Virus record (IMG/VR): IMGVR_UViG_3300032224_000487
Span: 1-43,503 of that record
Direction: 5' to 3' (one strand)
DNA: 43,503 bases
From: a virus
Under the pieces are notes generated by a model. That model searched no databases and was not told where the DNA came from. It saw only the letters and a program-made list of their open reading frames with translations. Each line of letters opens with the position of its first letter. Position 1 is the first letter of the stretch. This document shows positions 24,519 through 43,503 of this stretch, piece after piece. The translations under genes were made by a program, and so were the position numbers.

Positions 24519-25292
24519 TTAGTTTAGATAGAATTCTAACGGCGCACCGTATTCAGATTGCATTTCGGATTCCAACTTTTCAATTTCTGCAACTGCTTCA
24601 TTGTAGATTTGGTCACCATTCAGAGTTACACCGCCTGGTAGTTGTAAGCCATTAAATTTCTTAATGTTATTTCCCCAACTTCTTTTGATTAATGCCGTTG
24701 CATATTCTTTCAACCAACGGTCATTCCAAACGGAAGAATAAGCACTTGGGTCAATAATCGCATATGCTTCGGCAATTACCATTGTACCTGCGGGTGCCTC
24801 ACTACCACCCCAAGCCCAATCGATGTAGAGTCTTTTCATATGTCTCTGATATCGAATAGGAACCTCTCCAGTAAACAATATCTCCAGCGAACGTAAATGC
24901 TGTTGTGTCATCGTATAATTGATGTATGAGGCGGAGGTGAAGTCGTAGAGTTCGTTTAGACGTAGTTGATATCTCAGGTCAAACATATTAATAGTTGCCT
25001 GTGAATCTTGTAGTGGAAATATTCTTGTGATACCAATAATTTCTATATGATTATTGGTACTATCTACTGCGTTAGAAACATCCAGATACCTGTTCTGAAC
25101 ATCTGTATTAGTTACTTTTTTGATCCAAAATACTTTTTGTATACCATCAAAATGGTAGTCTTGCCAGTATTGTAAAGCGTCATCAATACGGTCCTGTACT
25201 TGGTCATCATCAACGTTAATTTCAATAACAGGGAAACCTAGTCTACGCAGGCAATAGTCAGTAAAGTCTTGTCTTGTTGTTATTGTTGCCAT
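24519..25292 (-). CDS. 13: Neck protein gp13
   Basis: A 257-residue protein (T4 gp13 is 309 aa). The start (RQDFTDYCLRRLGFPVIEINVDDDQVQDRIDDALQYWQDYHFDG) and the middle (YTMTQQHLRSLEILFTGEVPIRYQRHMKRLYIDWAW) match the family. It binds the portal and gp14 at the neck after packaging. GGAGAACCGCA precedes the ATG. It is the first gene of the conserved gp13-to-gp23 block. Confidence 0.94.
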   Translation of the reverse strand: MATITTRQDFTDYCLRRLGFPVIEINVDDDQVQDRIDDALQYWQDYHFDGIQKVFWIKKVTNTDVQNRYLDVSNAVDSTNNHIEIIGITRIFPLQDSQATINMFDLRYQLRLNELYDFTSASYINYTMTQQHLRSLEILFTGEVPIRYQRHMKRLYIDWAWGGSEAPAGTMVIAEAYAIIDPSAYSSVWNDRWLKEYATALIKRSWGNNIKKFNGLQLPGGVTLNGDQIYNEAVAEIEKLESEMQSEYGAPLEFYLN

Positions 25293-25304: not shown

Positions 25305-25859
25305 TTATACACTTTTCTTTTCTAATGATTCTACTTTTGCATTTAATTCTTTGATAGCTTCAATCAATAAAGGTATTAACTTTTGGTAATGAACAGTTAA
25401 ATATTGATTATCAATTGGTGCAGGAACAACGGCTTCAGGTAAAACCTTTTGAACTTCTTGTGCAGAAACTCCTACTTCGGGTACAATTTTATAACCTAAA
25501 CTTTGTGCCAAATCATTTGCATGATAATGAAAACCATTAAGAGATAATGTTTTTGTTAATGCATCAACAATATTTCCATGTCGGCTCTTTAATCTATCAT
25601 CAGAATAATATGCTGTTATATTATTTATGGCAACTATTTCACCTTTAACACCACTTGCGGCCGCACCAATACCTACAGAACCGACCTGTAAATTAACGCT
25701 ATTTGCGGTTAAAGTATTGGTAGATGGTCTGAAAGCCATAGAGGGAGAAGAATAGATGTAATTCGTTCTCCCACCTTGAGTAGGCTGTAGCGACATGAAA
25801 AACGTAGGTGAATCGTTCGCTACAGGTAATACTTGAAGTGCGCTGAGTGTCAAAGACAT
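25305..25859 (-). CDS. Short fibre protein with S74 intramolecular chaperone
   Basis: A 184-residue protein. Residues about 84-180 are a Peptidase_S74/intramolecular chaperone domain: YYSDDRLK with the S86/K91 self-cleavage dyad, then GFHYHAND-x-AQSLGYK-VPEVG-SAQEVQKVLPEAV-PAPID and a C-terminal trimerising helix. Only about 85 residues precede the cleavage site (a strand region LSALQVLPVANDSPTF and a hexapeptide-like SVNLQVGSVGIGAA). It sits immediately upstream of gp13, the slot of wac (fibritin) in T4. It may be a short collar or tail spike; it could also help fold another fibre. Confidence 0.85.
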   Translation of the reverse strand: MSLTLSALQVLPVANDSPTFFMSLQPTQGGRTNYIYSSPSMAFRPSTNTLTANSVNLQVGSVGIGAAASGVKGEIVAINNITAYYSDDRLKSRHGNIVDALTKTLSLNGFHYHANDLAQSLGYKIVPEVGVSAQEVQKVLPEAVVPAPIDNQYLTVHYQKLIPLLIEAIKELNAKVESLEKKSV

Positions 25860-25868
25860 AAGGTCTCC

Positions 25869-28800
25869 TTATGCCTGTGCTTCGTTCCAGGAATATCTAG
25901 CTTGAATTGCTCGAACCGCAGTAGGATCAATATTTCTGGCAACAATTGTTAGCACATCTGGACCATCAGGATAAATGTTGGTTGCAGCGTTTGCTGTACC
26001 ACCACTTAAAATACTTGTACCCAAATCACGCACATCAGACATAGATTGTGATGTTGCTGCAAACGTACCAGCTGGAGCATTTAAGTAGAAACCAAATGCA
26101 GGTTCACCACCAGATATGGTTGTACCTGCATTGTGGATAATGTATTGTGATAGACTTGAGCCGCCTACGTTTGTCCAAGTTTCTGCATTATTGGATGTTC
26201 TACCATTAAACACAACAGACATTAGGAAAGAACCGTTCGCATACATATCTGCCGCATATGGAATGTGTTGCATACGATTAATAATTTCACGTACACCAAT
26301 GTTGGTGTTTGCGATACCATTACTTACAGAAGGTGCAATACGGAAACTCATAACAGGTTGAACTTGGTTTGCGTTAACCAAAATGTTGTTGTTCATACCT
26401 TGTGTGAAAATCAGCGACTTATCGTTTGTGAAGCCGCCGTCCATGATTGCAGAAGTACCCCAATGGTTAATTTCTGGTCCAAATCCTGGTGCGTGTAATT
26501 CGACCGCTGTCTGTGCAGAAGGTGACGTTAATACTGTAAATGTTTGTGCAACGTTCGCCATTGGTGGGAAATATAAGAATACATTACCCGAACCAATTGC
26601 AGCTGAACTTAATTTTAATGATACGTTAGGTGTTAATTGAGTTACATATGTTTGTGATGCTACGTTAATACCAAATACATATTGACCAACTTGAACACCA
26701 TTAGTGTTATTGCCACCTGGAATGGTGACTGTTGTATTACCTAAAGTTGTGTTTGCCCAAATACCAATTACGTTACCTGGTTGTCCTCTTGTTAAACCAG
26801 TTAATGTATTACCAGTAATACCTGAATAGTTAATATATTCGGTGTTTGCAATGTTTGTACCGCCGTTATTGGCAGTACGAATCACCACAGTACCTGATGT
26901 TGGCCAACTGGTTAAATCTGCACAAGCTGCTGTAACGTCTGTTGATAACAAGTTTGCAGTTAAGAAAGTTGTTTTACTAAATGTTGAAGTCTCATAACGA
27001 CCAGGCAAGTTACCTGAACGCATATAAGCCAAATAGTTAACGTTATTGTTTACATATTTGTGACAGTAAATAATATTGCCGTCAGGTCCACGTACACCAA
27101 AACGAATGAAACCAGCACCGTACCAGCTGTAGTCAACATAGTACATTTGCATTTTAGTTAAATCTACATTGTAACCAGATGGTCCTGTTCCGTCCATTCT
27201 GTCAATGTTGAAAGCACTTTGTGGTGTTTTGATATCAACAGTTTTACTTGTTTGTGCAAAAGTAATTGGAACATTACCTCTATATGCAGGAGAAATGTAT
27301 AGAGTTTGGTCTGAAAGAATATCAGTAACTCTGTATGACATACCTTTAATGACAACAAAATCATTAACTGAAAGTTGTTTATTGAAAATTGTACCTGTTC
27401 CAGTAATTACATGAGAACCAGGGTTTGCAGCAACTGTACCACCAATTTGATATGTTGATGTACGTCTTACAGCAAATAATGTTTGACCATCATATTCCCA
27501 AAACAATCCGTTTTGTGCATCAAATATACCAATTTGATTCTTTGCACCATACCAGTTTGCAACTGAAGCAACATAAGTTCCACTAGCAACTAAATTACTT
27601 GGAATTGAGTTTGCTAGATATGTAAATTGATATGGAGAAAGAATATCTCTAACTGTAAAATAACCGTTGTATGCAGTTTCAGTTGCACCTTGAACAGAAA
27701 TCGTTACTGAGTTAGCAATATCATGTGGGTCTTTTGTTGTTACTGTTACAACACCGGTTGTTCCGTTTGCAACAAGAGCATCGATGTTATATTGTGGTTT
27801 CAATGTTGTACCAGTTGACAACTGAATACCTTTACCAGATTGATAACGGAAATAACGGCGTGTCTGACGAATGAATGATTGATTATGACTTGCTGCGTTT
27901 GTTGAGAAACGAACACCACCATCATATGAACGGTGTACAGAAGCGCCTTGGGGTCTTACATACAATGCAGATGGTGTACCTGCGGTGATACCACCAGAAG
28001 GTTGTGCGTATGTGTCCCAAAATTGGAATGATGTTGGATTTAAAACAGTTGCAACAGTCCATGAACCGTTTGGTGCGTTTGTGCCTGCCAAACCTGTAAT
28101 AGCAATTTCGTTACCAATTAATAATCCGTGTGCTACGTTGGTTGTAACAGTAACAGTATTAGTTGTGTTAACAATAGCGGTGATACCAATGTTTGCACCA
28201 GTAAATGTGTTAGCACGATAACCAACAGTCACACCTGAAATAAACAATGAATTACCTGTAGCAGAAACACCAGTAAATGGGAATTTACCTGTATATGAAA
28301 TAGATGTGGCTGTATTAGAATCAACAACATATGTACCATCTGCACCCGCATAAGCAGTATCCAAAACTGTAAACACGTTACCAATCGGAAGTGGATTTGC
28401 CATTACAAGCACGTAGTTTCTAGAACCTGTATTTGCTCTAACGTCTTGAATTACTAGTGGATTGTTAATATCATAAAAAGCAAAAGGTCTGTTATTCAAC
28501 AGAGAAATTTGTTCCCATTTTGTTTGTTGTAGACCATATTCAAAGTCGGTATCGATTAAGGCTTGTGGAGTAGAGACACGTAATTTGTTAACGGGATCCA
28601 AATAAGTTTCAGAAGGAGAGAACTTCTCATCATATTCATCAATCATAATCTGCAACTTATCTGTTGCAGCCATTTGAGTTGTGTTATAATTTAATACGAG
28701 AGTTGTTGTGGTTATAGCACCAGTTGCGTCAGTTGCAATATTATATGATGTAGTTTTCAGATTAGGGTCTGAAAAGTTGTAAATAACCTGACTTGTATTT

Positions 28801-28910
28801 GCGTTGGTAATTAAAGCCAAACGTTCTCTCGGCACAGCTCGAGGTAAGACTACCGTTCTAGTCGAAGGTGTGAATGTGTAATATGTATCTAAAATCACTT
28901 TACGTGCCAT
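25869..28910 (-). CDS. Large virion structural protein with repeated beta domains
   Basis: A 1013-residue protein in the baseplate/fibre block. The N-terminal 100 residues (VILDTYYTFTPSTRTVVLPR, TDKLQIMIDEYDE) form a domain. Two similar segments at about 250-298 and 386-434 share TVTVTT-x3-H-x-I-x-N, I-x-G and NG-x-FTV-x2-I-x-P-F-F, i.e. an internally duplicated Ig-like or beta-sandwich module. FIRQTRRYFRYQSGKGIQLSTGTTLKP near 348 is a motif I associate with large structural proteins of T4-like cyanophages. The ATG at 28908-28910 (AGGAG eight bases upstream) is the start; an in-frame TTG lies just before it. The exact location in the virion is unknown. Confidence 0.8.
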   Translation of the reverse strand: MARKVILDTYYTFTPSTRTVVLPRAVPRERLALITNANTSQVIYNFSDPNLKTTSYNIATDATGAITTTTLVLNYNTTQMAATDKLQIMIDEYDEKFSPSETYLDPVNKLRVSTPQALIDTDFEYGLQQTKWEQISLLNNRPFAFYDINNPLVIQDVRANTGSRNYVLVMANPLPIGNVFTVLDTAYAGADGTYVVDSNTATSISYTGKFPFTGVSATGNSLFISGVTVGYRANTFTGANIGITAIVNTTNTVTVTTNVAHGLLIGNEIAITGLAGTNAPNGSWTVATVLNPTSFQFWDTYAQPSGGITAGTPSALYVRPQGASVHRSYDGGVRFSTNAASHNQSFIRQTRRYFRYQSGKGIQLSTGTTLKPQYNIDALVANGTTGVVTVTTKDPHDIANSVTISVQGATETAYNGYFTVRDILSPYQFTYLANSIPSNLVASGTYVASVANWYGAKNQIGIFDAQNGLFWEYDGQTLFAVRRTSTYQIGGTVAANPGSHVITGTGTIFNKQLSVNDFVVIKGMSYRVTDILSDQTLYISPAYRGNVPITFAQTSKTVDIKTPQSAFNIDRMDGTGPSGYNVDLTKMQMYYVDYSWYGAGFIRFGVRGPDGNIIYCHKYVNNNVNYLAYMRSGNLPGRYETSTFSKTTFLTANLLSTDVTAACADLTSWPTSGTVVIRTANNGGTNIANTEYINYSGITGNTLTGLTRGQPGNVIGIWANTTLGNTTVTIPGGNNTNGVQVGQYVFGINVASQTYVTQLTPNVSLKLSSAAIGSGNVFLYFPPMANVAQTFTVLTSPSAQTAVELHAPGFGPEINHWGTSAIMDGGFTNDKSLIFTQGMNNNILVNANQVQPVMSFRIAPSVSNGIANTNIGVREIINRMQHIPYAADMYANGSFLMSVVFNGRTSNNAETWTNVGGSSLSQYIIHNAGTTISGGEPAFGFYLNAPAGTFAATSQSMSDVRDLGTSILSGGTANAATNIYPDGPDVLTIVARNIDPTAVRAIQARYSWNEAQA

Positions 28911-28941
28911 CAATATTCTCCTGAATAAATTCTTTGCCTAA

Positions 28942-28952: not shown

Positions 28953-30404
28953 TTAGTAGCCCACCATTATGTCAATCGGACTGAATGGGTATACCTTTTT
29001 AGTTGTGGTAATTGCACCAACAACCGTTCTTGCAACGATTTGAGCACCAGAAGGTGGTGCATCTGAAAATCTTAATTGACCCTGATAGTCAATTGTGTAA
29101 CCTTTATATCCACCAAATACTTGGCTCAACCAAACTGTATCGCTATTGTATACAAAATTTGGTTGCATAGCACCATCGACTGAAACCTGTATTTGACTTG
29201 GAGATATAACAGTAACATTACTTGAGTTATAAGTTAATGTAAATATGTTTGTTAGACCATCAGTTACATATGATAGGTCATCAAGGTCGTATACACCATC
29301 AAAACTTGTATTTGGTGTTATTTGTGCTGCGCTATTTTGTCTGGTACCATCACCAAATATTATATTACCTGAGCTCGATAAAGATAAATTACCAGAAATA
29401 CCAACACCACCAGAAACAACTAATGAACCGGTGGTAGATGTATTTGAAGGTTTATTTCCAGATATGTAAACACCAACAGTTGTTGATGTTGAAGTGTTAG
29501 TTTTAAGTGTGATAAGAGGATCGGTAGGACCTCCACCAGCATTAGGTCCAACCATAATATAATTAGATATCAAGTTAGCTGTACTACCACTTCTGGAACC
29601 AGAAGATATAATTACTTGACCTTCATAAAATTTTTGACCTGACCATTGGTTATAAACAGATGCTGGGAAAATTCCAATACCAGTTGTATAATTGTTACTT
29701 GCAACTATACTTAAAGGTGAGTTAGCTTGGTCAAGTTGGCCATTGACAGCACCAGGGAAAAATTGTGTGGTACTTACTATTTTATTCCATCTCAAGAAAT
29801 CGGATGAAAATATGCCGCCATTGTTTGCCCAACCAAAAGTAGGGTTAACAGAAATTCTTGCACGATTTAAGACATAGGGACCATTTTGTGCATCATTATA
29901 AGCTTCTAAGAAATTTACTGGACCAAGTTGAAAAGTTCCATTGGAATCTAAAATTATATTTGATACATTAATAGTTCCTGTGTATACTGTTGTATCATTT
30001 GATGAATAGTATAATAAATTAGTAACATTGGTCAAATAACCTGTAGAGTTGGCTATGATAACCGCATTAGCCAAATAACCAGAAGATGAACCACCACTAC
30101 CACCAGCCGCAGAACTATTAATTGTGATTGTTTTTAATATGGTATCCGTAGTAATAGTGACATTATTACCAGGAATAATAGATAAAGTATCTGTGGTTGT
30201 TGAAGCGATAATTAAAGAACCGTTTGAATTTACAGTACCAAATGTTAATTGGTTTGTAATGTTCTTAATTGTTCCTGTTGTATCTTTATAAAACAGTTTT
30301 CCATCGGCCGCATTAATAGCCAGTTCGCCGTTTGCTAATGAAGCGGGAACATTACCAGTCGCTGTGGACTTCTTTATTTGGATTACTGTATTTGCAATTG
30401 GCAT
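28953..30404 (-). CDS. Tail fibre-like protein A
   Basis: A 483-residue protein. Residues 1-50 share a head module with fibre-like protein B: MPI-x-NT-x-I-x-IK-x-STA, then GELA and LF-x-KDTTG, a virion-attachment N-terminus seen in many phage fibres. The middle is Ser/Thr/Asn-rich beta structure. TTGSLVVSGGVGISGNL near 345 is a common fibre repeat. The last 110 residues (SFDGVYDLDDLSYVTDG to MVGY) form a separate terminal domain. The start has only a weak ribosome binding site and follows the coiled-coil gene by four bases. The receptor is unknown. Confidence 0.78.
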   Translation of the reverse strand: MPIANTVIQIKKSTATGNVPASLANGELAINAADGKLFYKDTTGTIKNITNQLTFGTVNSNGSLIIASTTTDTLSIIPGNNVTITTDTILKTITINSSAAGGSGGSSSGYLANAVIIANSTGYLTNVTNLLYYSSNDTTVYTGTINVSNIILDSNGTFQLGPVNFLEAYNDAQNGPYVLNRARISVNPTFGWANNGGIFSSDFLRWNKIVSTTQFFPGAVNGQLDQANSPLSIVASNNYTTGIGIFPASVYNQWSGQKFYEGQVIISSGSRSGSTANLISNYIMVGPNAGGGPTDPLITLKTNTSTSTTVGVYISGNKPSNTSTTGSLVVSGGVGISGNLSLSSSGNIIFGDGTRQNSAAQITPNTSFDGVYDLDDLSYVTDGLTNIFTLTYNSSNVTVISPSQIQVSVDGAMQPNFVYNSDTVWLSQVFGGYKGYTIDYQGQLRFSDAPPSGAQIVARTVVGAITTTKKVYPFSPIDIMVGY

Positions 30405-30408
30405 TTAA

Positions 30409-30894
30409 TTAAAAACTTCCGCCGTCTTCTGTTGTTGTATTGGCATTCGTTACCAATAATGGAGTTGAATTGGCCACGACCTCATCAACTTTTTTTCTTT
30501 TAGCAGGAGTTAATTGTAAATATTCAATGCGCTTATTTAATTCCAAAATTTGTTTGTCGTAAGACTCACGGGTTTGCTGATGCAAATCTCTTTCTTTAAT
30601 CAATTCATTTCTAAATGTATCAACGTGTTGCACCTGATGCTTAACATTATTAAATTCAGATTCTTTGGATTCTAACTGAGCAAGTCTTTCTTGCAAATTT
30701 TTTGTAGAATTTTCTGCTGCAATTAATTTATTTTCAGTATCACTTTTTAATGTACCAATTAACTTTGCTTGTTCTTCTATTGTTTCATTGCCTATTCGAA
30801 CACTTGCTTGTAAAGATACATTCTTCAACATTGCATCGGTTAACATAGATGTTAAACCTTCAATATAATAATTAACATAATTTTCATTATTCAT
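30409..30894 (-). CDS. Coiled-coil protein between two fibre genes
   Basis: A 161-residue protein, mostly a long coiled coil (about 45-130: repeated E/K/L heptads such as NLQERLAQLESKESEF and YDKQILELNKRIEYL). The N-terminus (MNNENYVNYYIEGLTSMLTDAML) looks like a separate helical head. The C-terminus ends in DGGSF, the same five residues that end fibre-like protein B. AGGAG precedes the ATG. It is likely a virion or fibre-associated rod; a trimeric stalk is inference. Confidence 0.78.
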   Translation of the reverse strand: MNNENYVNYYIEGLTSMLTDAMLKNVSLQASVRIGNETIEEQAKLIGTLKSDTENKLIAAENSTKNLQERLAQLESKESEFNNVKHQVQHVDTFRNELIKERDLHQQTRESYDKQILELNKRIEYLQLTPAKRKKVDEVVANSTPLLVTNANTTTEDGGSF

Positions 30895-30927: not shown

Positions 30928-32616
30928 TTAGAATGATCCTCCATCCATGTTTGTTGCCCAAACTGGAGTTCCTGTGTTAGTTACAGTTAGAATCTGGTTA
31001 CTCCATGTTTGGTCAGAAGCACCTGCAAGAGCAGTCGCTTGCAAGGCACCTGTTCCGGCACCATAAATGATACCGTTTGATTGGAATGTACCTGCGCCAG
31101 TACCACCTCTTGGTACAGTTAATGTGCCTGCATTAATTTGTGATGCATCAATTGCAATATCTGCACCAGTTGCAGCAGTCACACGACCATATGCATCTAC
31201 AGATAAAGATGTGATTGTTTTTGCAGCACTTAATGCACCAGTCAATGTGTAAGTACTGTTTGCAAGTCCTGTAAATTTAGTACCATCAGAAATAACTAAT
31301 GCACCTGGCACATAGTTGTTTTGGTTTGTACCACCACGGTTCAATGCCAAGTTACCAGATGTTACTTGACTTGCATCAATTTGAATTAATGTATTTGAGA
31401 TAGATGCAAGACGGCCATATACATCAACACCGATGATTGCATTGTATGCTGCGTTAGCATATGTGTTTGCAGCTGCAAGTGCAGTAAAGTTGTTGCCTAA
31501 TTGTTGTACAGGTTGTGTGCCACCGCCACCGATAATGATTTGACCAGCGTTGAATGTTGCAACACCTGTACCACCACTAGCAACACCAATTGCGGAACTC
31601 AAACTACTAATTGTACCACCAACAATTGTTGGATTAAAGATGTTTGAACTTAGAACCCAACCGTTTACAAGGTTTGCAGAAACGTTTGCAAGTCTGAATG
31701 ATGTATTGCCTGTATCAATGTTATTATTACCAGAAAGTTCTGGTAAATAGTTATCAAAGATATAGAATTGTTTGTTGGTTGAATCACGGAACATACCAGT
31801 ATGGCGTTCCCATGTACCATCAAAGTAATTTGCAGCCCAACCTAAGTCTGCTGTATCACTTGTATAGTTGTTTGCACCCAAGTAAATCATTGGGTCACCA
31901 ATCACCAAATCGTTGGTGTATGATGTTGTTGTATTACCTTGAACAACCAAGTTACCTGTAATAACCAAGTTGGTATTAATAACTTGAGCACCAACAGCGT
32001 TTGTATTTGAACGTAAAACTGTTGTGTCCGTACCAAATGTTATAGTATTTGTTGTGACAGCTGTGGTAATACCTTTTGTACCTAAATTTACGAATGTGTT
32101 ACCGGTACTGAAAGAGGATGAAGTTGTGCCGTCACTAATATTAAATGATGTTGAAATTGCAGCATTAGAAACCGCAACGATACGGCCGTTTGCAGCAACA
32201 GTAAGCACAGGAATATTGGTTGAACTTCCGTAATTGTTGGCCGCAGGACCTGCACCAATCGTGTTACTTAAAGCTGCTGAAAGAGCAACTGCGCCGGTAC
32301 CATCAAACGATACAGATGATGCAAGAACGTCACCAGTAATAGAGAAATTTTGTGCGGTATCTAATCTGACCGCAGAGTTTGCAACACCAAACAATCTACC
32401 AAAGAACGCACCTTGTTGGTTACGTTGTACAATACTGTTTGCAACGTTCGCTGCTGACGAAAAACCACCAATTTGTAGGTAACCTGCACCATCTGATGTA
32501 CCAATGAACAGACCATTACTTGCATAAGAATAGGCTAATTCACCAGCTTTAAGTGACGTTGGAGTACTATTTGCGGTCGAGCGTTTGATTAAAATACTGG
32601 TGTTTGAAATTGGCAT
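30928..32616 (-). CDS. Tail fibre-like protein B
   Basis: A 562-residue fibre. The N-terminal 50 residues are the same module as protein A (MPI-x-NTSILIKRSTA, GELAYSY, LFIGTSDG). Internal repeats are visible: VAANGRIVAVSN, VDVYGRLASISN and VDAYGRVTAATG, two of them followed by IDASQ(V/I)-x-(A/S)G-L-x3-RGGT, and three GGTG-x2-TF-x-AG-like turns. These are typical of shaft repeats. The C-terminus ends NMDGGSF. An AAGGG site precedes the ATG and a late promoter lies at 32647. Confidence 0.82.
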   Translation of the reverse strand: MPISNTSILIKRSTANSTPTSLKAGELAYSYASNGLFIGTSDGAGYLQIGGFSSAANVANSIVQRNQQGAFFGRLFGVANSAVRLDTAQNFSITGDVLASSVSFDGTGAVALSAALSNTIGAGPAANNYGSSTNIPVLTVAANGRIVAVSNAAISTSFNISDGTTSSSFSTGNTFVNLGTKGITTAVTTNTITFGTDTTVLRSNTNAVGAQVINTNLVITGNLVVQGNTTTSYTNDLVIGDPMIYLGANNYTSDTADLGWAANYFDGTWERHTGMFRDSTNKQFYIFDNYLPELSGNNNIDTGNTSFRLANVSANLVNGWVLSSNIFNPTIVGGTISSLSSAIGVASGGTGVATFNAGQIIIGGGGTQPVQQLGNNFTALAAANTYANAAYNAIIGVDVYGRLASISNTLIQIDASQVTSGNLALNRGGTNQNNYVPGALVISDGTKFTGLANSTYTLTGALSAAKTITSLSVDAYGRVTAATGADIAIDASQINAGTLTVPRGGTGAGTFQSNGIIYGAGTGALQATALAGASDQTWSNQILTVTNTGTPVWATNMDGGSF

Positions 32617-32646: not shown

Positions 32647-32654
32647 TATTTATT
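32647..32654 (-). promoter_or_regulatory. Late promoter of fibre-like protein B (AATAAATA)
   Basis: AATAAATA on the minus strand, overlapping the TAA stop of the preceding 192-aa gene (TAATAAATA). The ATG at 32616 follows about 30 bases later with an AAGGG site. Confidence 0.72.
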
Positions 32655-33231
32655 AAAAAGTGCCACCGTTGACCGTGACTATAGTTCCATAAATTTCGTT
32701 GAATGGTTTGTTTTGAGAACCTAAATTTGAAGTATTTGCCACAGCCGGAATAACATTACCAGGTAGTCCTAAAGAACTATCTTTACCAAAAGTCCAAAGA
32801 GCACCTGCTCCACCTGTATCGGTAATTATCTCTACACGACCATTGGAATATACTTGTGCTAAACCTCCATCACCCTCTTGAACTGAAACAGCAGTATCCC
32901 CAATAAGATTATTTGCTACAAGTGATACTATATTGTTACTATCATTTCCTATTAATGCACTACCACCACTAAACTTTAAATTAGTACCTCCACCAGAGAG
33001 TATTAATGATCCGGTCATTGTGTCACCGGATTTACTTAACTTACTGTTTACGTTAGCTGCAGCTGCGTTTGCGGTAGCCGAAGCTTGTTCAGCTAAATCG
33101 ACCGCATAATTGATTTCATTAACTAGATTGGCGGAAGAACCAACAAAGGTAGCTGAAGAAGTTACTCTTGGAGCTAAAGGAGTTCCTACCCTGACAGTAA
33201 TGGGAGGATTTGTTATTCTAACAACAGTCAT
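32653..33231 (-). CDS. Small fibre-like protein
   Basis: A 192-residue protein. It has an Ala/Asn-rich helical stretch (INYAVDLAEQASATANAAAANVNSKL) followed by KSGDTMTGSLILSGG, the common phage tail-fibre repeat motif. The C-terminal half is beta-rich (GALWTFGKDSSLGLPG; SNLGSQNKPFNEIYGT), a pattern used in phage proteins that display grid-like beta repeats, and it ends VNGGTF, similar to DGGSF in its neighbours. GGGAAG precedes the ATG. The exact position in the fibre is unknown. Confidence 0.78.
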   Translation of the reverse strand: MTVVRITNPPITVRVGTPLAPRVTSSATFVGSSANLVNEINYAVDLAEQASATANAAAANVNSKLSKSGDTMTGSLILSGGGTNLKFSGGSALIGNDSNNIVSLVANNLIGDTAVSVQEGDGGLAQVYSNGRVEIITDTGGAGALWTFGKDSSLGLPGNVIPAVANTSNLGSQNKPFNEIYGTIVTVNGGTF

Positions 33232-33582
33232 TTAACTTCCCGATTTAGTGGCTGCAGGAGAAACGAATATCTGTCCTTCTAAAATACGTGTTATTGTTCC
33301 TGTTCCTGTGTCTGTGGCAATCACATCATACACTAATTTTCCAGCTGGAACATTGGCGGTCACCGCAGAGTTGGCACTTAGAGTAACCAATCCATTGTTA
33401 GCATTGGTGATAGATGCCACAAAATTAATTGTGGCATTTGCGGAATAATAACTTCTTCTGGCTTGGGACCTGATAGTGTATCCTGTCAGATTGATTGGAC
33501 TTCCATATACATCATCTAAAGTAAGTTCTACTTTAAAAGTGGTGCCTTGTTCTAAGAATTGGTCTTGATATCCAGCTGGCAT
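33232..33582 (-). CDS. Small Ig-like virion protein
   Basis: A 116-residue beta-rich protein: YQDQFLEQGTTFKVELTLDDVYGSPINLTGYTIRSQARRSY, then strands GLVTLSANSAVTANVPAGKLVYDVIATD and ILEGQIFVSP. The layout resembles the N-terminal Ig-like domain of baseplate/upper-fibre proteins (BppU-type) found as short stand-alone ORFs next to fibres in many phages. It abuts the neighbouring gene exactly (stop at 33232-33234, next ATG ends at 33231). It may act as a fibre-to-baseplate adaptor; this is inference. Confidence 0.75.
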   Translation of the reverse strand: MPAGYQDQFLEQGTTFKVELTLDDVYGSPINLTGYTIRSQARRSYYSANATINFVASITNANNGLVTLSANSAVTANVPAGKLVYDVIATDTGTGTITRILEGQIFVSPAATKSGS

Positions 33583-33583
33583 C

Positions 33584-36500
33584 TTATCTCACCTTCTTTA
33601 ATTCTTCTATCTCAGCTCTCAGTTCTTTGATTGCCTCGACAAGTAATGGAATAACCCTTTCATAACGAATTGTCAAATACTTGTCATCAATAGGTGCAGG
33701 AGAAATAACCTCTGGTAGAACTGCTTGAACTTGTTGTGCAGACAGACCAACTTCTTTGGTTAGTTTGTAACCTAAAGACTGTGCAGTTTCGTTTGGTTCA
33801 TAGTAGAAACCATCCAAAGTTCCAATTTTATCAAGTGCATTATCAATGTTACCTAACCTGGTTTTCAATCTATCATCAGAGTAGTAAGCAACAATGTTAT
33901 TGATTGCACGGATAGAACCTGTATTTGCAGTATCTGGTGCAGTACCAACACCTAGTGAACCTGTCAGATAGGTATTACCTGTTGCAAATGTATTGTTACT
34001 TGCAAAGTATTGTAGGTTAGCAACGTTAGCTACATAACCAGTTGTGTTTGCAAACAATACAGAGTTTGCACGATAACCAAATGTGTTTGCGTTACCTGTA
34101 CCAATAGAACCAATATCCGAGAACGTAACTTCATTTGTAACAACGTTATAGAATACTAGGTTGTTTGTGTTTGCAGCATCTTTACGAATTGGATTGATAT
34201 ACAATCCAGAATTGTTTGCAAATAAATTATTTGCACTAGCATTAATTGCAATACTGTTTGCTACTTGATTTGATGGACCTGCTCGGTTACCAATTGCAAT
34301 TGCATATGTACCTTGATTATAATTACCCGCAGAAGAACCGATTGCAATAGTATTACTTGATTGATAAATAGAGCCTGCTCGGTTACCAATTGCAATTGAA
34401 TTAAGACCATCATTTGCATTTATTCCACCCGAATTACCACTTTGATGGCCAATTGCAATAGAGTTGGCGCCTTGGTTATAACCAGCCGAGTTACCAATTG
34501 CAACACCATTGTTTTGTTGTTGGTAACCAGCTGCCGAACCTAAAGCAACACCATTGTTTCCAGTTTGATTCACACCAGCAGCATTGCCAATTGCAATAGA
34601 AGAACCACCTTGAGATGATGTTCCAGCACTTGTACCAATTGCAACTGAGTATTGACCTTGGTTTGCACTACCAGCACTAGATCCAATTGCAACAGCACTA
34701 CTACTTTGAGATGATGATCCAGCACCAGATCCAATTGCAACAGAACTTCCGCCTTGAGTTGTTTGACCAGCGTATTTACCAATTGCAACAGATTCCATAC
34801 CTTGTGAATCATAACCAGCAGAAGGACCAACTGCAACTGAGTATTGACCTTGTGTTTGTTGGCCAGCTTGAACACCAACTGCAACAGAGCTTGAACCTTG
34901 AACAAGTTTACCAGCATATGGACCAACTGCAACTGCTGAAATTTGTTGAGAACTTGATCCTGCTTCAATACCAATTGCAACACCGGCAAGGCTTTGTGAA
35001 TTATAACCAGCATATTGGCCAATTGCAATTGCACCAAAGCTTTGTACATAATTGCCTGCATCAACACCAATTGCTACAGCATTTACGCCTTGATAATAAT
35101 TACCTGCATTTAAACCAATTGCCACACTATTATATTGTTGCGTGTCTAAGCCTGCATTTGTACCAATAGCAACTGTATTATCCCATTGATTGTTATTTCC
35201 AGCATATGTACCAATTGAAATAGAATAATTATTTTGTGAAGTTAAACCTGCATAGGTACCAATTGCAATAGAGTTAGCACCTTGGTTAGCAGCTGCAGCA
35301 TTAGTACCAACCGCAATACTAAATGAATTTTGATTTGCTCGAGCTGCATAGGTACCAATTGCAATAGAATAATTGTTTTGGTTTGATAGTCCAGCACTTG
35401 CACCAATTGAAATTGCATTTATTAATTGTCTACTATTACCTGCGGTTTGGCCAATTGCAATACTTCTTGAACCTTGGCTTGTTGCTCCTGCGCCGTTACC
35501 AATAGCAACAGCAAATGTTCCTTGGCTTGTTACTCCTGTTGCATTACCAATAGCAATTGCACTTTGCCCTTGGCTTGTTGTTGCTGTTGAGGGACCAATT
35601 GCAACAGCACTTAAACCTTGGCTTGTTGTTCCTGTTGAAAGACCGATTGCAATTGCTTGAGTTGATTGATTAGTTGTACCAGCATTAGTACCAATTGCTA
35701 TAGCATTTGAGGAGTTTGGTGATGAGCGTCCAGCACTTGTACCAATTGAGATTGAATAAACACCAGAGTTATTTGCAGCTTTAGAACCTATACCAACAGA
35801 ATAAGTATTTGAACCAGCTACATCACCAATTGCAATACCATACTGTCCTTTTTTAGGTGTACCTGCTTGATATCCTATTGATGTTCCATAACTGTTAGCT
35901 TTAGTTTCTGCACCCACAAGTACTGAATAACTTGGTGCATCACCTGAAGCGCTGCCAGCGCTGCCACCAATTACAACAGAAGCATCGCCTTGGTAATAAG
36001 CAGCAGCTGCACCAATTGCAACTGAACTTAATCCTTGACCACTATAAGCTGCCGAATCACCAATTGCAATTCCCTGTAAACTTTGATTTTGATATCCTGC
36101 GTCATTACCAATTGCAATTGCAAGAGCTCCTTGGCCACTATAACCTGCAGCTGCACCAATTGCAATAGCACTTGCACCAGAGGTTCCTCCAGCATCAACA
36201 CCAATTATAACTGAGTCACCAGAAGTTCCAGCACCTGCATTTTTACCAATAATAATATCATTTAGGTCATTTAATCCACCTGCATCATTACCAATAATGA
36301 CAGAATTTTGTCCAGTAAGTGTGCCACCAGCATTAGTACCAATGTGTATACTATTTGCTGCAATACCTCTGGTATTATAACCAATTCCAATTGCAAAAGG
36401 AATATTTGTAGCGGGAAATGCATTAAGACCGATTGCAATTGAGTTTTCTCCCAACTGACTGCGACCAGCATTAGTACCAATTGCAACAGAGTTTGCTGAT

Positions 36501-38446
36501 TGAGAACTGCGGCCTGCATTGGTACCTATTGCAACAGCGTATGCTCTTTGACTATCATATGCGGCTTGATAACCTATACCAATAGAATAAGAGTTTTGAG
36601 TTCCTGATACAGCAGATTCAGAACCGATTGCAATTGAGAAAGAATTTTGTGTGTAACCTGCATTATATCCAACTGCAATAGAATTATTTCCTTGGCTTGT
36701 ATAACCTGCGGCATTTCCAATTGCAACTGAGTTTTGTTTTTGGTTGGAATTACCTGAACCAACACCAATTGCAACTGCAGCATTTGCTTGATTTGTTTGA
36801 CCTGCATATTGACCTACTGCAACACTTTGACTACTTTGTTCTGTTGTACCGGCCGCAAAACCAATTGCAACACTATTCTGGCCTTGATTTGTTTTACCTG
36901 CCTCAAATCCAACCGCAACAGCAACATCTTTTTGATTTGTTTTACCCGCAGAAGCACCAATTGCAACAGCTTGCGAACCTTGGCTTGCATTACCGGAGTC
37001 CGTACCAATTGCAATAGAATATGCTCCTTGGTTGTTATATCCAGCCGCCCAACCCATTGCAACGCCAAAGTCTTTCTGAGCCGTACCACCTGCAGCATTA
37101 GTACCAATTGCGACAGCACCCACACCTTGATTGTTTACACCAGCGAATTGACCAATTGCAACGGATCCGGTGTTTTGACTTACTTGACCAGCGTTGAGAC
37201 CAATGGCAACTGCCGAGTCTTGTTGAGTTAATTGACCAGCATTAGGGCCAATTGCAACTGCATTATAACCTTGATAACTTGTACCAGCTTGATAACCAAC
37301 AGCGATTGCTTGAGCATTTTGTGTAGTTTGGCCGGCGTATCGGCCAATAGAGATTGCAGTTTCACCTTGGTTTGCGTAACCTGCTTCAGAACCTAATGCA
37401 ACCGCATATCGACCTTGAGTACCACCGGTATTATAACCAATTGCAATCGCATACGTATTTTGGCTAGTAGATGCTGCGTTATAACCAATTGCAATACTTG
37501 CAAAGCCTTGGTTTGTGCCACCAGCACTTTGACCTAATGAAACAGCAAATGATCCTTGGCCAATTTCACCAGCACTATTACCAATTGCAACAGCAAAACT
37601 GTTTTGAGAAACTCTAGCCGCTTGATAACCAATTGCAAGAGAATATGATGATTGATTAGTATTAGCTGCTAGATAACCAATTGCAACCGCATATTGTCCT
37701 TGACTATTCATACCAGCAGATGTGCCAATTGAAATAGTCTGTACATTTGTTTTTGTTTTGTTTAACGCATCAGTAGAAATAGTAATCGATGATGTAACAG
37801 AATTGATTGCAAACACCATTGAGTTAACAGTTAACGTATTGTTTGCAGTAATATTGTTTGCGGTAATAGTACCAGAGAATAATGTTGGTACTCTCACAGA
37901 AGTAAACACCGCACCGTTGGCAGTCATACTATTAACATTGGCTGTTTCAACTCTTAAAGTTGGAACGTATGCGTTTGTTATTGTAGAGTTTGTAACCGTC
38001 TCGGTTGTTATTGTTGCAGTATTTAAAGTGGAAATATTTGCGTTTAGGTTTTTAATATAACCAGTTGTTGCATATGCAGATGCCATATTGGCATTAACTG
38101 CAACTGTCATTGTGTTGACAGTAATTGTATTTGGTGTAATTAAATTTGCTGTGATTGTGCCAGTAACAACTCTGGTTATAAATGCGTTACCACCAATTGA
38201 TACATCACCTGTTACTTGTAGTGTGTTACCTGATGTAGCAGCTTGAGAGAGTACAAGGTTACCGCCAATCAGAGCGTTATTAGAAACGGAAAGAGTTGTT
38301 CCCGATCCAGAGAGAGTTAATAAACCACTATCTTTTGTGTAGTTGCTTTTTGCTAATACATTATTTTCAATGACAAGTTGACCTGTGGCGGTCAACCATT
38401 CGCTGAATGTATTTGCTAAGCTTAGGGAATTTACTGTATTTGCCAT
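33584..38446 (-). CDS. Giant tail fibre with YadA-head-like repeats and S74 chaperone
   Basis: A 1620-residue adhesin-like fibre. Residues 1-237 are a beta-rich N-terminal region with repeated NNITVN-like strands. Residues 238-1405 hold about 74 copies of a 16-residue unit, consensus (V/I)A(I/V)G-x2-AG-x3-QG-x2-S, related to the YadA/Hep_Hag trimeric autotransporter head repeat (usual period about 14). Residues 1405-1522 are a linker. Residues 1523-1620 are a Peptidase_S74 chaperone with SDDRLK (S1523, K1528), GFYYEPNETAQSLGYK and a trimerising C-terminal helix. The chaperone should cleave itself off after trimer folding. The start shares a TAATG junction with the small coiled-coil gene. A trimeric receptor-binding fibre is the likely role. 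Confidence 0.88.
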   Translation of the reverse strand: MANTVNSLSLANTFSEWLTATGQLVIENNVLAKSNYTKDSGLLTLSGSGTTLSVSNNALIGGNLVLSQAATSGNTLQVTGDVSIGGNAFITRVVTGTITANLITPNTITVNTMTVAVNANMASAYATTGYIKNLNANISTLNTATITTETVTNSTITNAYVPTLRVETANVNSMTANGAVFTSVRVPTLFSGTITANNITANNTLTVNSMVFAINSVTSSITISTDALNKTKTNVQTISIGTSAGMNSQGQYAVAIGYLAANTNQSSYSLAIGYQAARVSQNSFAVAIGNSAGEIGQGSFAVSLGQSAGGTNQGFASIAIGYNAASTSQNTYAIAIGYNTGGTQGRYAVALGSEAGYANQGETAISIGRYAGQTTQNAQAIAVGYQAGTSYQGYNAVAIGPNAGQLTQQDSAVAIGLNAGQVSQNTGSVAIGQFAGVNNQGVGAVAIGTNAAGGTAQKDFGVAMGWAAGYNNQGAYSIAIGTDSGNASQGSQAVAIGASAGKTNQKDVAVAVGFEAGKTNQGQNSVAIGFAAGTTEQSSQSVAVGQYAGQTNQANAAVAIGVGSGNSNQKQNSVAIGNAAGYTSQGNNSIAVGYNAGYTQNSFSIAIGSESAVSGTQNSYSIGIGYQAAYDSQRAYAVAIGTNAGRSSQSANSVAIGTNAGRSQLGENSIAIGLNAFPATNIPFAIGIGYNTRGIAANSIHIGTNAGGTLTGQNSVIIGNDAGGLNDLNDIIIGKNAGAGTSGDSVIIGVDAGGTSGASAIAIGAAAGYSGQGALAIAIGNDAGYQNQSLQGIAIGDSAAYSGQGLSSVAIGAAAAYYQGDASVVIGGSAGSASGDAPSYSVLVGAETKANSYGTSIGYQAGTPKKGQYGIAIGDVAGSNTYSVGIGSKAANNSGVYSISIGTSAGRSSPNSSNAIAIGTNAGTTNQSTQAIAIGLSTGTTSQGLSAVAIGPSTATTSQGQSAIAIGNATGVTSQGTFAVAIGNGAGATSQGSRSIAIGQTAGNSRQLINAISIGASAGLSNQNNYSIAIGTYAARANQNSFSIAVGTNAAAANQGANSIAIGTYAGLTSQNNYSISIGTYAGNNNQWDNTVAIGTNAGLDTQQYNSVAIGLNAGNYYQGVNAVAIGVDAGNYVQSFGAIAIGQYAGYNSQSLAGVAIGIEAGSSSQQISAVAVGPYAGKLVQGSSSVAVGVQAGQQTQGQYSVAVGPSAGYDSQGMESVAIGKYAGQTTQGGSSVAIGSGAGSSSQSSSAVAIGSSAGSANQGQYSVAIGTSAGTSSQGGSSIAIGNAAGVNQTGNNGVALGSAAGYQQQNNGVAIGNSAGYNQGANSIAIGHQSGNSGGINANDGLNSIAIGNRAGSIYQSSNTIAIGSSAGNYNQGTYAIAIGNRAGPSNQVANSIAINASANNLFANNSGLYINPIRKDAANTNNLVFYNVVTNEVTFSDIGSIGTGNANTFGYRANSVLFANTTGYVANVANLQYFASNNTFATGNTYLTGSLGVGTAPDTANTGSIRAINNIVAYYSDDRLKTRLGNIDNALDKIGTLDGFYYEPNETAQSLGYKLTKEVGLSAQQVQAVLPEVISPAPIDDKYLTIRYERVIPLLVEAIKELRAEIEELKKVR
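34231..37735 (-). repeat. Coding tandem repeat, about 74 units of 48 bases
   Basis: Degenerate in-frame repeats of 16 codons encoding the YadA-like units of the fibre. Nearly every unit contains a version of CAATTGC in forward orientation (from the AIG codons). Units diverge strongly at the DNA level but the reading frame is kept throughout, so selection is on protein. A few units are irregular (14-18 residues), notably around 35900-36350, where the Gln residues are missing. Confidence 0.93.
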
Positions 38447-38664
38447 TATTGTCTATCTATAAGCTGTTTGAGTAGAGATTTGATATCATTCATTTCGTTC
38501 TTTAACTCTGATATCTCAGTATTTACTTTATTTAGTTCATCTTTTTGGTTCTTTAACATACGAACCTTTGCATAATATTCATTCTTTTCTGTGATATTAG
38601 TATTGAGGAGGGCCATCGATTCAGTATCTCTGACCATTTCCACATTGTTTACTTTTACCAACAT
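38446..38664 (-). CDS. Small coiled-coil protein beside the giant fibre
   Basis: A 72-residue protein starting MLVKVNNVEMVRDTESMALL, followed by a coiled coil (NEYYAKVRMLKNQKDEL, EISELKNEMNDIKSLLKQLIDR). A longer frame begins 12 codons upstream, but the ATG at 38662-38664 has AGGA seven bases before it and lies one base after the stop of the large structural gene. A fibre-associated or assembly-helper role is suggested by its position only. Confidence 0.75.
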   Translation of the reverse strand: MLVKVNNVEMVRDTESMALLNTNITEKNEYYAKVRMLKNQKDELNKVNTEISELKNEMNDIKSLLKQLIDRQ

Positions 38665-38665
38665 A

Positions 38666-41600
38666 TTAAATTCCTGTTCCTGATGGTAAGGCAAGCGCAC
38701 GAATGTCTGTTAATATCGGAGTGTTGGTTGGATCTGATGCAGCCAATACAACTTTGATAACAAACTGATTGAAACTATTATAAGTTGTACCAGTTGTCAC
38801 ACTAGTATATTGCACAGCGTTGTTTGCCAAGTTGGACAAAATATTTCCTGGAGCATACTCATACTCAATTACGTTTGTTCTATCACTAGAATAAACACCA
38901 GGTCTTCCACTTTGTGCCATTAATTGCCATGGTTGGTCTTCCATTTTTGCAGAATCCGCAGCATTTATAATCTTATAGTAAACGTAGACCTGTGAACCAA
39001 CTGGTTTGTATGCACTCAGATAAACTCTCAGGTCACCAGATTCATTACCAGTTTGTAGAACAACTTTCTTGGTGATGTATCTTGCAAGACCATTACCACC
39101 TGATGGTGATGTTTCACCAGAGATTGTAATGACTGCGTTGGCATTACCAGTTTGACGAGTTGTTGGATCGGAGATGGTGATTGTTGGTGTCACCACATAA
39201 CCAGAACCTCTGTAAGTTGTAAAGACTGACTGGATTGAACCAGAGATTGCGTTGGTTGTGTAACCAAACACAGGCAAATCATTCACACCAAAGTCGTTCT
39301 GTGTATTAGAACCAGTTAGACCGGAAGTAATAACAACAGTTGCAAGGTTACTGTATCCATTACCAGTATTGGCAACAGAAATAACATTTGGTGGAATACC
39401 CATGTTATTAATAGAATATTGAATCGAATACAAAGTAGTACCGTCATCGGATATAATTGGTGTCACCCATGGATCAGTTGAACTCATAGTTGCTATCATG
39501 TCGAATGAAGCAGATGAATCTTTTAACAACAAACGAGAACCTTTACCATCACTTAAATAGAAGTCATCAGGTAATGGATTACCAAATCTTCCTGGAGTAA
39601 CCGCTGCAGCTGCAGTTTTAGTCTGGTCACTTGCCAATAGTGAAGAATATGTGTAGTTGATACTTGTTCCTGTTGGAGCAAAATCGGTTGTTGTCAAATT
39701 AAATGCGTGTAAAGATTGTGTTGGTGCAAAGTTACCTTGCAAATTATTTACCGTATTGGCATTCATTGCGTAAGATAATCCTTGTGAACCAACTTTTCTC
39801 ATAGGCAGATTTTTTGAAACACTAAATGTTATGTCTGGAGTTTTTGTAGTATCAAACTTACAAGCATTCAGTACAAACATTAGTGACTTACCTTGGTCTG
39901 CGGTCCATGTCAATGAGTTTTGAGATTCAAACAATGAACCAACATATGGTGTTGCACCAATTTTTGTTGCTTTGGATGGATTTGCATCTGTGGGTAATGC
40001 TTTTGCACTTGATGCTACTGCCAATTCATTTTGACCACCATAATACAACAGATAATCTGTACTATTTGCATTAACCATAAAGGCATACAATACACCAGAT
40101 TGTACATATACTGGTGCATCGAATACAAATTCAGTCCATGTGGTACTATCCAAATAGTGTGGAGTATTTGATGTTCTAATGTCAGAAGCGTTGATAATAG
40201 TTGTTGAGTAATCCAATACTTTACCTGTTGGATAACCATTGAGTGTTTCAACAAGACTTACTGTAACAGGAACTGTTGGTTTCTTAACAGTAGTATATGG
40301 TGCAAAGAACAGTCTTGTAGAATATAAATATGCACCATTTGGATAATTCTTCTTGTCTAAGATGAATGTTTGTGCTAACGGATCCATTGGAGCTGTTAAG
40401 CTGACAATATTATATCCTTGTTTACTTTGTGGAGTAAATGTCAATGCAGAAGAATCCACAGAAGGTGAAGATGTTCCAGTATTTCTATAAGCACCTGATG
40501 CAAAGAATGTTGCCTCCGCAAAGGTAGTTGCTGTTGAAGGATTATTGGTACTTCTTACACGATTGTCTACACGGAACACTCGGTTACCACTAAAGAATTG
40601 GGAACCTGGCATATTAAAGACAGCAGTAAAGTTGCCATTCTCATCAGAAGAAAGTGCGGGTATAGTATTGCCTATTGCTTTTGCGCCAGCTAAACTTACT
40701 GATGAACCTCTGATACTATATGCTGAAGTTAAGTTACCAAACTCACTATTATTTCCTATAGAAACAGCAACAGGAACATCCAATGTGGCAGTTCTTGTTG
40801 GCCCATAATAGTTAGTGATGTTCGCAGTCATTGTAGTTGTTGCAACTAACAATGCAGTCTTAGATTTTTGACCATCTTGTTTTGTTTTGTTTGCAGCAAT
40901 CGCAGCAGTATCGTCTGCCCAACCCATAGCCCATGGTCGACCTGCGTCACCATCACCTGTTCTGTAACCCAAGTTAACTAGTATTTCTGGAGGTGGTGCC
41001 AAATATTCAGCTGCATAGTTATATTGATACGCATAAGATGTTTTAATTGTAAGCGCACCGCCTGTATAGAAATTATTTGCAGCAGATGCATTTGGAGCAA
41101 AGTTGATACTTGTTACACCATCATAGTAATTGCCACCACCAGGCATTGCAATATTTGATGTTGCACCAGATGAGAACAATAAACCAGCAGGAGATACTGA
41201 ATTCCAAACAACGATGTTGTTGGCATCTGTAACTGTTGCACCAATGGCAGCTGTTACTGTTCCTGGTGTAGTTAAAGTCCAACTAATATTAGTGTTACTA
41301 TTTGCAAAGAATGCTCCACCACCACTAAAGTTTTTGCTTAATGTTAATATTGTACCAGGATCTGCCGTTGCAGTTAATGTTCCTGTGTTACCAAAGTTGA
41401 TTGTACCAGAAGCATTTGTTACAACTTTAAGTGTGTATGTTCCATTTGCCGTGATAGGCATCTTCCATGCACCACCATTATACGGGCTATTATTATTTGG
41501 ATTACCCCAAACACCGTAGTTGTTAATGATTGTACCAGCTTCTGTTGTACCCCACAGTTTCTGTGTTTTATAGATGTATGAAGGTGAAGTCTGTGCTACT

Positions 41601-43503
41601 GTAGTAAATTGACCACCTATACCAGAAATTAAACCACTAGTAGACATACTCAATATAGAATTTGCATCACTAACTTTTACGTTACCGGAAGCAGTTGTTG
41701 ATAGATATGTACCAGTTGGTCCAAAGTATGCGTTAATCAGATTAGCTGAACTGCTGACTGTATTTGGTGTTTGAATGAAGTCTGCAATATACAAACGTGT
41801 TTGATTATTTGTTGGGTAGTTGTAAACTGAAACAACACGACCAACAGGGAAAAATTTAGAAATATTGGTGTCATAGAAACCAATAATATCATCTTCATTA
41901 AATTTACCTTTTACACCAGTCAATTCAATTGAATCTGGTATAGTCATGTATTTGTCAACATTTAAACCATCAAAGTAACAACCTAGAATTGCATCAGTTT
42001 GTAAACCTTTTGCTCTAACAATAACTTCTTGCGGTCTAATATAAGCCTGTACACCATCATTGTTCACATAACCATTTTGTACTGATAATGGTGTTGGTGC
42101 CGCAGTAGAAGCTTTTGTTGCATTTTGAAAACCAGTAGTTTGACTTGCATAATTTTGCTGAATGTTTGTATAATCATCCGCAGTAGGTACCAAATTAGTA
42201 CCAACAAGTGATGCATAGTCACCTGAGTTGGTTAAGTTTGTTCCACCAGATTGTTGTGCAAAGTTAAACTTTGGATCATTAATAACAATATTAGGAACTT
42301 CAAATGTATTAATCCAATTATCAAGTGGTGGATTCAACAAACAAACACCTTGATAATTAATAACACCAAATGGGTTTACACTAATCGTATTACTTGCTAA
42401 TTGTTGAACTGCAACGTTAGCAATAGTATATGGAAGTGTGTAAATATTACTTAATGAATTGTTAATTCCATTAATTGTAAATGAACTTGTTGGTGTTGTG
42501 TTTGAACCATAACTTGCATTTACAAAAGCGTTTTGCAATTGGAAGTTTTCAACATATTGTAATGGTGATAATGTTTTCTTTCTGATGTTGATGTTACATC
42601 TGAAATTATTTTGTGTAGTATCTGCGGTACCAAATGAACTGAAGTCATCTACCAAAATACCATTCTTAAATCTATTCAAACCATTAACGTCAGGAACTTG
42701 TAATGAATTTGCATTTGATTCCAACAAACTCAATGAAGTATAATATTCTAAGTTGTTAACTTGTGTTTGTAAGTCTGAAATATCAGATTTAGCCCAACGT
42801 TTATGTAAAACTTTTTGGAACGACAAGTTAGATGCGGTACTATTTTGTGTAATACCATATGTTGATTCTGCTGAAACATAATTAGAACCTTCACCTGGAA
42901 CAAACGCAGTATATGGATCCAAATTAAAATTAGCAAGTAACAATGAATCATCTGGTTCAACAGGATATACTGGTGATGAAGCAGGTGTTCCAAGAACCAT
43001 AATAAACTGACTGTCTTTGGTTAGAACAAGTTTATCTTTTCTACCCAAGTAATAGTTATAACCAGCAGTAAAGTTGGATCTATTTTGTGGAAGGAACAAA
43101 CCACCACTTGTTGTTGATGGTGATGACTTATAGTTCCATGTGTAAGATGTTACACCATTTTGTCTAGATGGACGGAAATCAATTGAATCTCTCAACTGAT
43201 ATAATGTTCCAGCTTTGGTTGTGTATGATGGAATTTGTGAGTATGTTTCATTTACATATGAACTCACAGTAAAGTATCCATCACCACCACTATGTGCATA
43301 GTAATCGTATGCAACAAGAATGTTACCAATTGGTGCAGAGGCGCCTGGTTTTAATTTAATTGATGCATGGTCATAAAAACCATCTCTTTGTCCAGTATCC
43401 AAACTATAAGATGATGTGATGTTTCTATAGTTAGAAAACGTTGTTCAGTTACCTGTGGTACCACTTGAGAATATATAAGTACCTGTAGCACCAGTATCAA
43501 TAA
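38666..43503 (-). CDS. Large DUF4815-type virion protein, 5' end outside window, in-frame TGA
   Basis: At least 1578 codons run without interruption from 43444 down to the stop. Sequence near the visible start (YDYYAHSGGDGYFTVSSYVNET...LYQLRDSIDFRPSRQ) and PLAQTFILDKKNYPNGAYLYSTRLFFA further on resemble large DUF4815-type structural proteins of T4-like cyanophages. Upstream of 43444 the same frame continues to encode virion-like residues (IDTGATGTYIFSSGTTGN) but is cut by TGA at 43445-43447. No ATG with a ribosome binding site follows the TGA. The gene therefore either carries a nonsense mutation, a read error or a recoded stop. The virion location is unknown; baseplate or tail periphery is likely from gene order. 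Confidence 0.72.

Follow-up and report, generated by a model that had tools for sequence, protein, structure and literature searches.

Trimeric autotransporter adhesins (TAAs) carry heads of stacked repeats (Pfam YadA_head, PF05658) with an NSVAIG core and an invariant glycine, one unit forming one layer, as in YadA (1P9H), BoaA (3S6L), BpaC (7O23) and UspA1. The unit has 14 residues (mostly 15 in UspA1) and the proteins end in an autotransporter barrel; insertions also occur in the inter-layer loop, and the C-terminal head of BpaC is predicted to have 42 layers (PMC9543794). A tail fibre with a YadA-like domain was reported from a pelagiphage in 2014 (Mizuno et al., cluster C24; PMC3909814), and the figure concerned gives a YadA-like (3S6L_A) region, with S74 among the domains, for a T7-like podovirus fibre. 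The cultured Pelagibacter phage HTVC111P (31.6-kb genome) encodes an 811-aa protein, gp52 (MN698245), with an N-terminal region, a long AIG-type array of mostly 17-residue NTTG-type units and a C-terminal S74 with SDxRxK, although Pfam YadA_head was not detected on its array. Structural proteins with a 'YadA domain' are also named in two cyanophage papers (PMC6224464, PMC9146016), and one of them, S-SZBM1_54, was seen in virions (PMC9146016).

Here we analyse a tail-fibre protein encoded on a viral contig of 43,503 bases (the window), in which an array of YadA-head-like repeats precedes a C-terminal S74 domain. It shares with TAA heads the core motif, one unit per layer and the predicted fold, but its unit mostly has 16 residues with a conserved Gln that probably lies in the inter-layer loop, it has 74 layers against the 42 predicted for BpaC, and it ends in S74 instead of a barrel. 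Its overall plan is that of HTVC111P gp52 and, as far as the published figure goes, its main domains are those of the 2014 podovirus fibre, whereas the phage here is T4-like. The preliminary description of this DNA had pointed to YadA repeats combined with S74; given the pelagiphage precedents, the architecture is already known. This fibre is a long example of it and firmly links a fold of bacterial adhesins with the fibre shafts of T4-like phages from aquatic settings. The remark in that description on similar repeats in some large-virus proteins proved sound. Array proteins of chloroviruses, the marseillevirus-like LCMAC101 and the Qinghai Lake virophage (BFVD) match our structural model, and the best of them superpose within 0.6-1.0 A across 123-128 columns of the alignment, with 40-49% identity; these come from viruses of eukaryotes and were compared by the array only. 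The chlorovirus glycoprotein repeat PF06598 matched neither the window nor the 55 array segments described below, which is weak evidence as the control genomes were also without a match.

Genome context of the fibre gene

The genes of the contig include T4-type gp13-gp20, gp23, gp55, 46/47-like genes and uvsY, and its gp23 is 66% identical to that of Methylophilales phage Melnitz and 64% to that of Pelagibacter phage Mosig; on these genes we class the phage as T4-like. Two tail-tube paralogues, both PHROG 45, lie on this one T4-like contig (11327-11911 and 18139-18681, minus strand). The fibre gene sits between VrlC and gp13 (Table 1), the gene order of cyanophage S-TIM4, with matches in the same order for VrlC (E 3e-38), gp13 (3e-46) and gp14 (1e-55), and the VrlC-gp13 locus is the host-recognition cluster of pelagimyophages (PMC7029224). 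S-TIM4 ORF108 (L190:35209-41919) occupies the same locus as our fibre and was considered as a YadA precedent, but 560-aa pieces of it gave no YadA_head, only Mtd_N; at least one phage protein with a published 'YadA domain' label lacks the repeat. At the contig end, the VrlC-like frame appears to run upstream of its TTG start past a single in-frame stop (43402-43503, minus strand), and whether the TTG is the true start or marks an interruption is uncertain. At the gp13 edge, the 184-aa protein is mostly a second S74 (Pfam 1.6e-8), so that hardly any fibre accompanies the chaperone domain.

The 116-aa protein adjacent to the fibre matches PHROG 3304 (L-shaped tail fibre assembly) at E 8e-19, its best two PDB matches are 8HQZ (4.9e-4) and 7QG9 (9.3e-4; p132), and the gene recurs in six related loci (L015, L030, L100, L123, L135 and L138). 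We regard it as a putative T5 p132/LtfC-like fibre collar. The L-shaped tail fibre pb1 of T5, a siphovirus, is S74-terminated and has a p132 collar, so that both phages combine an S74-ended fibre with a p132-like attachment protein; the T5 shaft is not known to be a YadA-type roll.

Table 1 Features of the fibre gene and its cluster in the window
Feature	Position	Strand	Basis or remark
Tail-fibre gene, 1620 aa	33584..38446	-	Open reading frame, as in the preliminary description
N-terminal region presumed to attach to the virion, aa 1-235	37742..38446	-	L030 homologue, 49% identity; role presumed
74 YadA-head-like repeats (mostly 16-residue units), aa 236-1412	34211..37741	-	Score matrix, Pfam, model
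Irregular array stretch, aa 684-913	35708..36397	-	Units of 13-18 residues, most without the Gln
Segment from array to S74, aa 1413-1522, presumed to be the mature fibre's distal tip	33881..34210	-	Role presumed
Peptidase_S74 intramolecular chaperone, aa 1523-1620	33587..33880	-	Pfam, profile, residue conservation
S1523 codon	33878-33880	-	S74 domain
K1528 codon	33863-33865	-	S74 domain
VrlC-like baseplate protein, one cluster edge	38666..43402	-	Match to S-TIM4
84-aa virion protein between VrlC and fibre	38446..38700	-	Homologue of S-TIM4 ORF106
116-aa putative T5 p132/L-shaped tail fibre assembly relative (fibre collar/attachment)	33232..33582	-	Conserved beside such fibres
192-aa small fibre-like cluster protein	32653..33231	-	Cluster comparison
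Second fibre gene, 562 aa, without array	30928..32616	-	L123 homologue has 31 repeats
161-aa cluster protein	30409..30894	-	Conserved in L030, L123, L135
Third fibre gene, 483 aa, without array	28953..30404	-	L030 homologue has 36 repeats
1014-aa virion structural protein	25869..28913	-	
184-aa protein, mostly second S74 domain	25305..25859	-	Pfam
gp13 neck protein, other cluster edge	24519..25292	-	Match to S-TIM4

The repeat array and its predicted fold

Iterating a 16-column score matrix over the protein yields 74 scorable units with the consensus N[SA][VI]AIGxxAGxxxQGx. The start-to-start spacing is 16 in 56 of 73 cases and 15 in nine, the others ranging from 13 to 21, and conservation is highest for G at position 6 (73/74), followed by A at 9 (64/74), G at 10 (58/74) and Q at 14 (52/74). 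The motif [IVL]x[IVLM]G occurs 73 times in the protein and 54 of the spacings are exactly 16, compared with a mean of 5.4 motifs (maximum 14) and 0.017 such spacings (maximum 1) in 2000 shuffles, and a degenerate two-unit DNA repeat pattern has 18 exact matches in the real sequence and none in 100 shuffles. Units one to three places apart resemble each other slightly more (0.19-0.23 versus about 0.15), but a higher-order repeat like that of BpaC was not found in the unit similarities, which have no fixed period. The C-terminus matches PF13884 over aa 1523-1580 (E 3.3e-8, 34-38 bits, cut-off 22). The earlier observation of a repeat array with S74 is hence confirmed, including the count of about 74 repeats, the span of about 1170 residues, the 16-residue unit with its conserved Gln and the S74 beginning at S1523; it is refined by the irregular stretch at aa 684-913 (Table 1).

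A profile of the S74 domain matches MYRF (7DC3) and the tail fibres 8JOV and 6F45 in the PDB. Its S-D-x-R-x-K motif places Ser and Lys five residues apart, and S1523 and K1528 are invariant in all 13 sequences compared. MYRF S578 and K583 have the same spacing, and their counterparts are the catalytic dyad of phage endosialidases (PMC3742443); we infer that the fibre protein cleaves itself before S1523. Among array proteins, Pfam found S74 in the C-terminal tails of only 3 of 75 viral proteins, and in 1 of 24 encoded by cellular genomes; array and S74 are therefore not an obligate pair.

The preliminary description had staked its reading on similarity to YadA-head profiles, and this was found. 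Three array pieces of 250-265 aa score 38.4, 31.0 and 28.0 bits against Pfam YadA_head (cut-off 25) and a single 128-aa segment scores 31.9, whereas the control copies made of one piece, one reversed and two shuffled, gave no match. We cut 55 non-overlapping segments from the arrays of the window and other loci as the basis of an array profile and an AlphaFold2 alignment; 49 of them match YadA_head, and the profile has only two PDB matches, YadA 1P9H (2.9e-6) and EibD 2XQH (1.8e-4). The full-length protein searched against Pfam (hmmscan, E 0.1) reported no YadA_head, for which the composition handling of HMMER is the probable cause. Full-length profile scans can miss long YadA-type arrays that are recovered when the protein is cut into pieces, and such arrays are probably under-annotated. 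We considered and rejected a trimeric autotransporter adhesin (type Vc secretion) identity, with only the head repeat in common: Pfam scans of the fibre protein found no C-terminal YadA anchor beta-barrel, S74 being there instead.

AlphaFold2 predicts a monomer of eight repeats (55 sequences; pLDDT 84, pTM 0.80) as a left-handed parallel beta-roll like that of TAA heads. In VIA-align the nine best rows are all TAA heads, led by BoaA 3S6L (Z 16.1), BpaC 7O23 (15.8) and YadA 1P9H (14.8), with EibD, AtaA, UspA1 and CbpF next. Of the 128 model residues, 112 align with both 3S6L and 7O23, which corresponds to 14 of 16 per layer (8 x 14 of 8 x 16); therefore the two extra residues of each layer most likely belong to the inter-layer loop. 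DSSP of the model places a bridge at or beside the Gln in most layers, which makes a row of Gln along the shaft plausible. Foldseek against the PDB returned nothing under E 0.001 (best TAA 1P9H at E 0.25; 3S6L at probability 0.91), while predicted viral proteins gave strong matches. Overall, a YadA-like beta-roll reading of the array is supported. At the rise per layer of the BpaC head, 4.29 A from 81.5 A over 19 steps (PMC9543794), 74 layers would measure about 31 nm; of the very long left-handed beta-roll fibre that had been proposed, the roll stands in the predicted monomer and its TAA alignments, and 'very long' is relative. For the tip with S74, the predicted structure has a pLDDT of 46.

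Array length in related fibres and the proposed function

With one common threshold across syntenic T4-like clusters, the first fibre gene has 74 repeats in the window, 11 in L030 and none detected in L123; the second has 31 in L123 and 4 in L135 but none in the window or L030; and the third has 36 in L030 and none in the window, even though the first 100 residues of the two third-gene products are 70% identical. The fibre and its L030 homologue are 49% identical in the N-terminal region and 73% in the tip and S74 region, in contrast to the array sequence, which is not conserved between relatives. In this handful of loci there is evidence that the array behaves like a length-variable, exchangeable shaft cassette. 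A search for relatives of the N-terminal region in viral contigs and 50,697 phage records found none, and the L030 and L123 homologues came via the array search only. Equivalent fibre genes with 74, 36, 31, 11 and 0 layers form a natural homologue set that could be used to test fibre length in adsorption. The 36-repeat fibre of L030 (L030:7309-10092) ends in a different C-terminal domain, which has a SLEGPEYGVYVRG motif, is unmatched in Pfam and may be a further domain for fibre maturation.

Taken as a whole, the protein is very probably a homotrimeric T4-like myovirus tail fibre with a beta-roll shaft, a distal tip and a self-cleaving S74, serving host-surface binding. The N-terminal 235 residues would attach it to the virion, probably aided by the adjacent T5-p132-like protein, and the gene context suggests that the fibre is incorporated into virions. 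Each of the 74 repeats would supply one layer of a left-handed parallel beta-roll, a stiff shaft of the kind seen in YadA, BpaC and BoaA heads, with each layer carrying its two extra loop residues at the Gln-bearing edge between layers; residues 1413-1522 would form the distal tip. The S74 domain may nucleate trimerisation and then cut itself off by its Ser-Lys dyad, locking the fibre. In this account the repeat number, the family match, the gene context and the conserved dyad are direct observations and the monomer fold is a model prediction, while trimer formation, cleavage, virion attachment and host binding are proposed.

The most likely role of the array is that of a shaft that sets fibre length, but the array could instead be the receptor-binding part in place of the tip, its variable outer positions offering a long multivalent adhesive surface comparable to the collagen-binding YadA head. 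The head is indeed the binding domain of YadA (1P9H is titled the collagen-binding domain), and in our array nine variable positions have a mean identity of 17% around a fixed core, so every layer exposes a different surface. However, the repeat number varies from 74 to 11 to none detected in homologous fibres, as would suit a spacer, and what the relatives share is the C-terminal region and not the array sequence. We therefore think an array that replaces the tip in receptor binding unlikely; its variable outer face might, however, add some weak adhesion to the shaft role.

Two further readings concern the array itself. Left-handed beta-helix acyltransferases are the top PDB rows by E-value in Foldseek, and left-handed beta-helix transferases, at Z 11.7 or less, are the best non-TAA rows in VIA-align, so a helix like those of LbH transferases or antifreeze proteins might be envisaged in place of a TAA-type roll. 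All nine leading VIA rows are nevertheless TAA heads, the sequence profiles match TAA heads only and a period of 16 is not a multiple of six; we consider such a helix very improbable. Even less credible is that the array was created during assembly or is a degenerating repeat without a structural role, as might be suspected because the contig comes from an uncultured virus and repeats are easily misassembled. The 16-residue units average 42% DNA identity and never exceed 77%, which makes the array old and not a recent slippage product and allows unique read placement; in addition, the reading frame is open throughout, core positions are conserved while the remainder diverges, and L030 provides a syntenic homologue of the same architecture.

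Distribution of the Gln-type unit

Relatives were gathered with an IUPAC DNA pattern for the Gln-type unit, and the sample is accordingly biased to that type. The pattern occurs in at least 120 IMG/VR stretches, so the 16-residue Gln form, which had been treated as unusual, is not peculiar to this protein; it also occurs in 47 bacterial genome contigs, mostly Bacteroidota, some of which are perhaps viral. A broader reading is that these arrays form a class of their own among YadA-type beta-rolls, with Gln-bearing units of 16 residues, in aquatic phages, eukaryotic viruses and Bacteroidota, an exchangeable cassette that moves between the fibre genes of one host-recognition cluster, with the number of layers setting fibre length, and that full-length annotation largely misses; we put this forward tentatively, as somewhat less than an even prospect. 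Four of the genome contigs (L175, L170, L161 and L181), short and binned as Proteobacteria or Chitinophagia, carry 40-70 nearly uniform 16-residue Gln-type repeats and are possibly viral.
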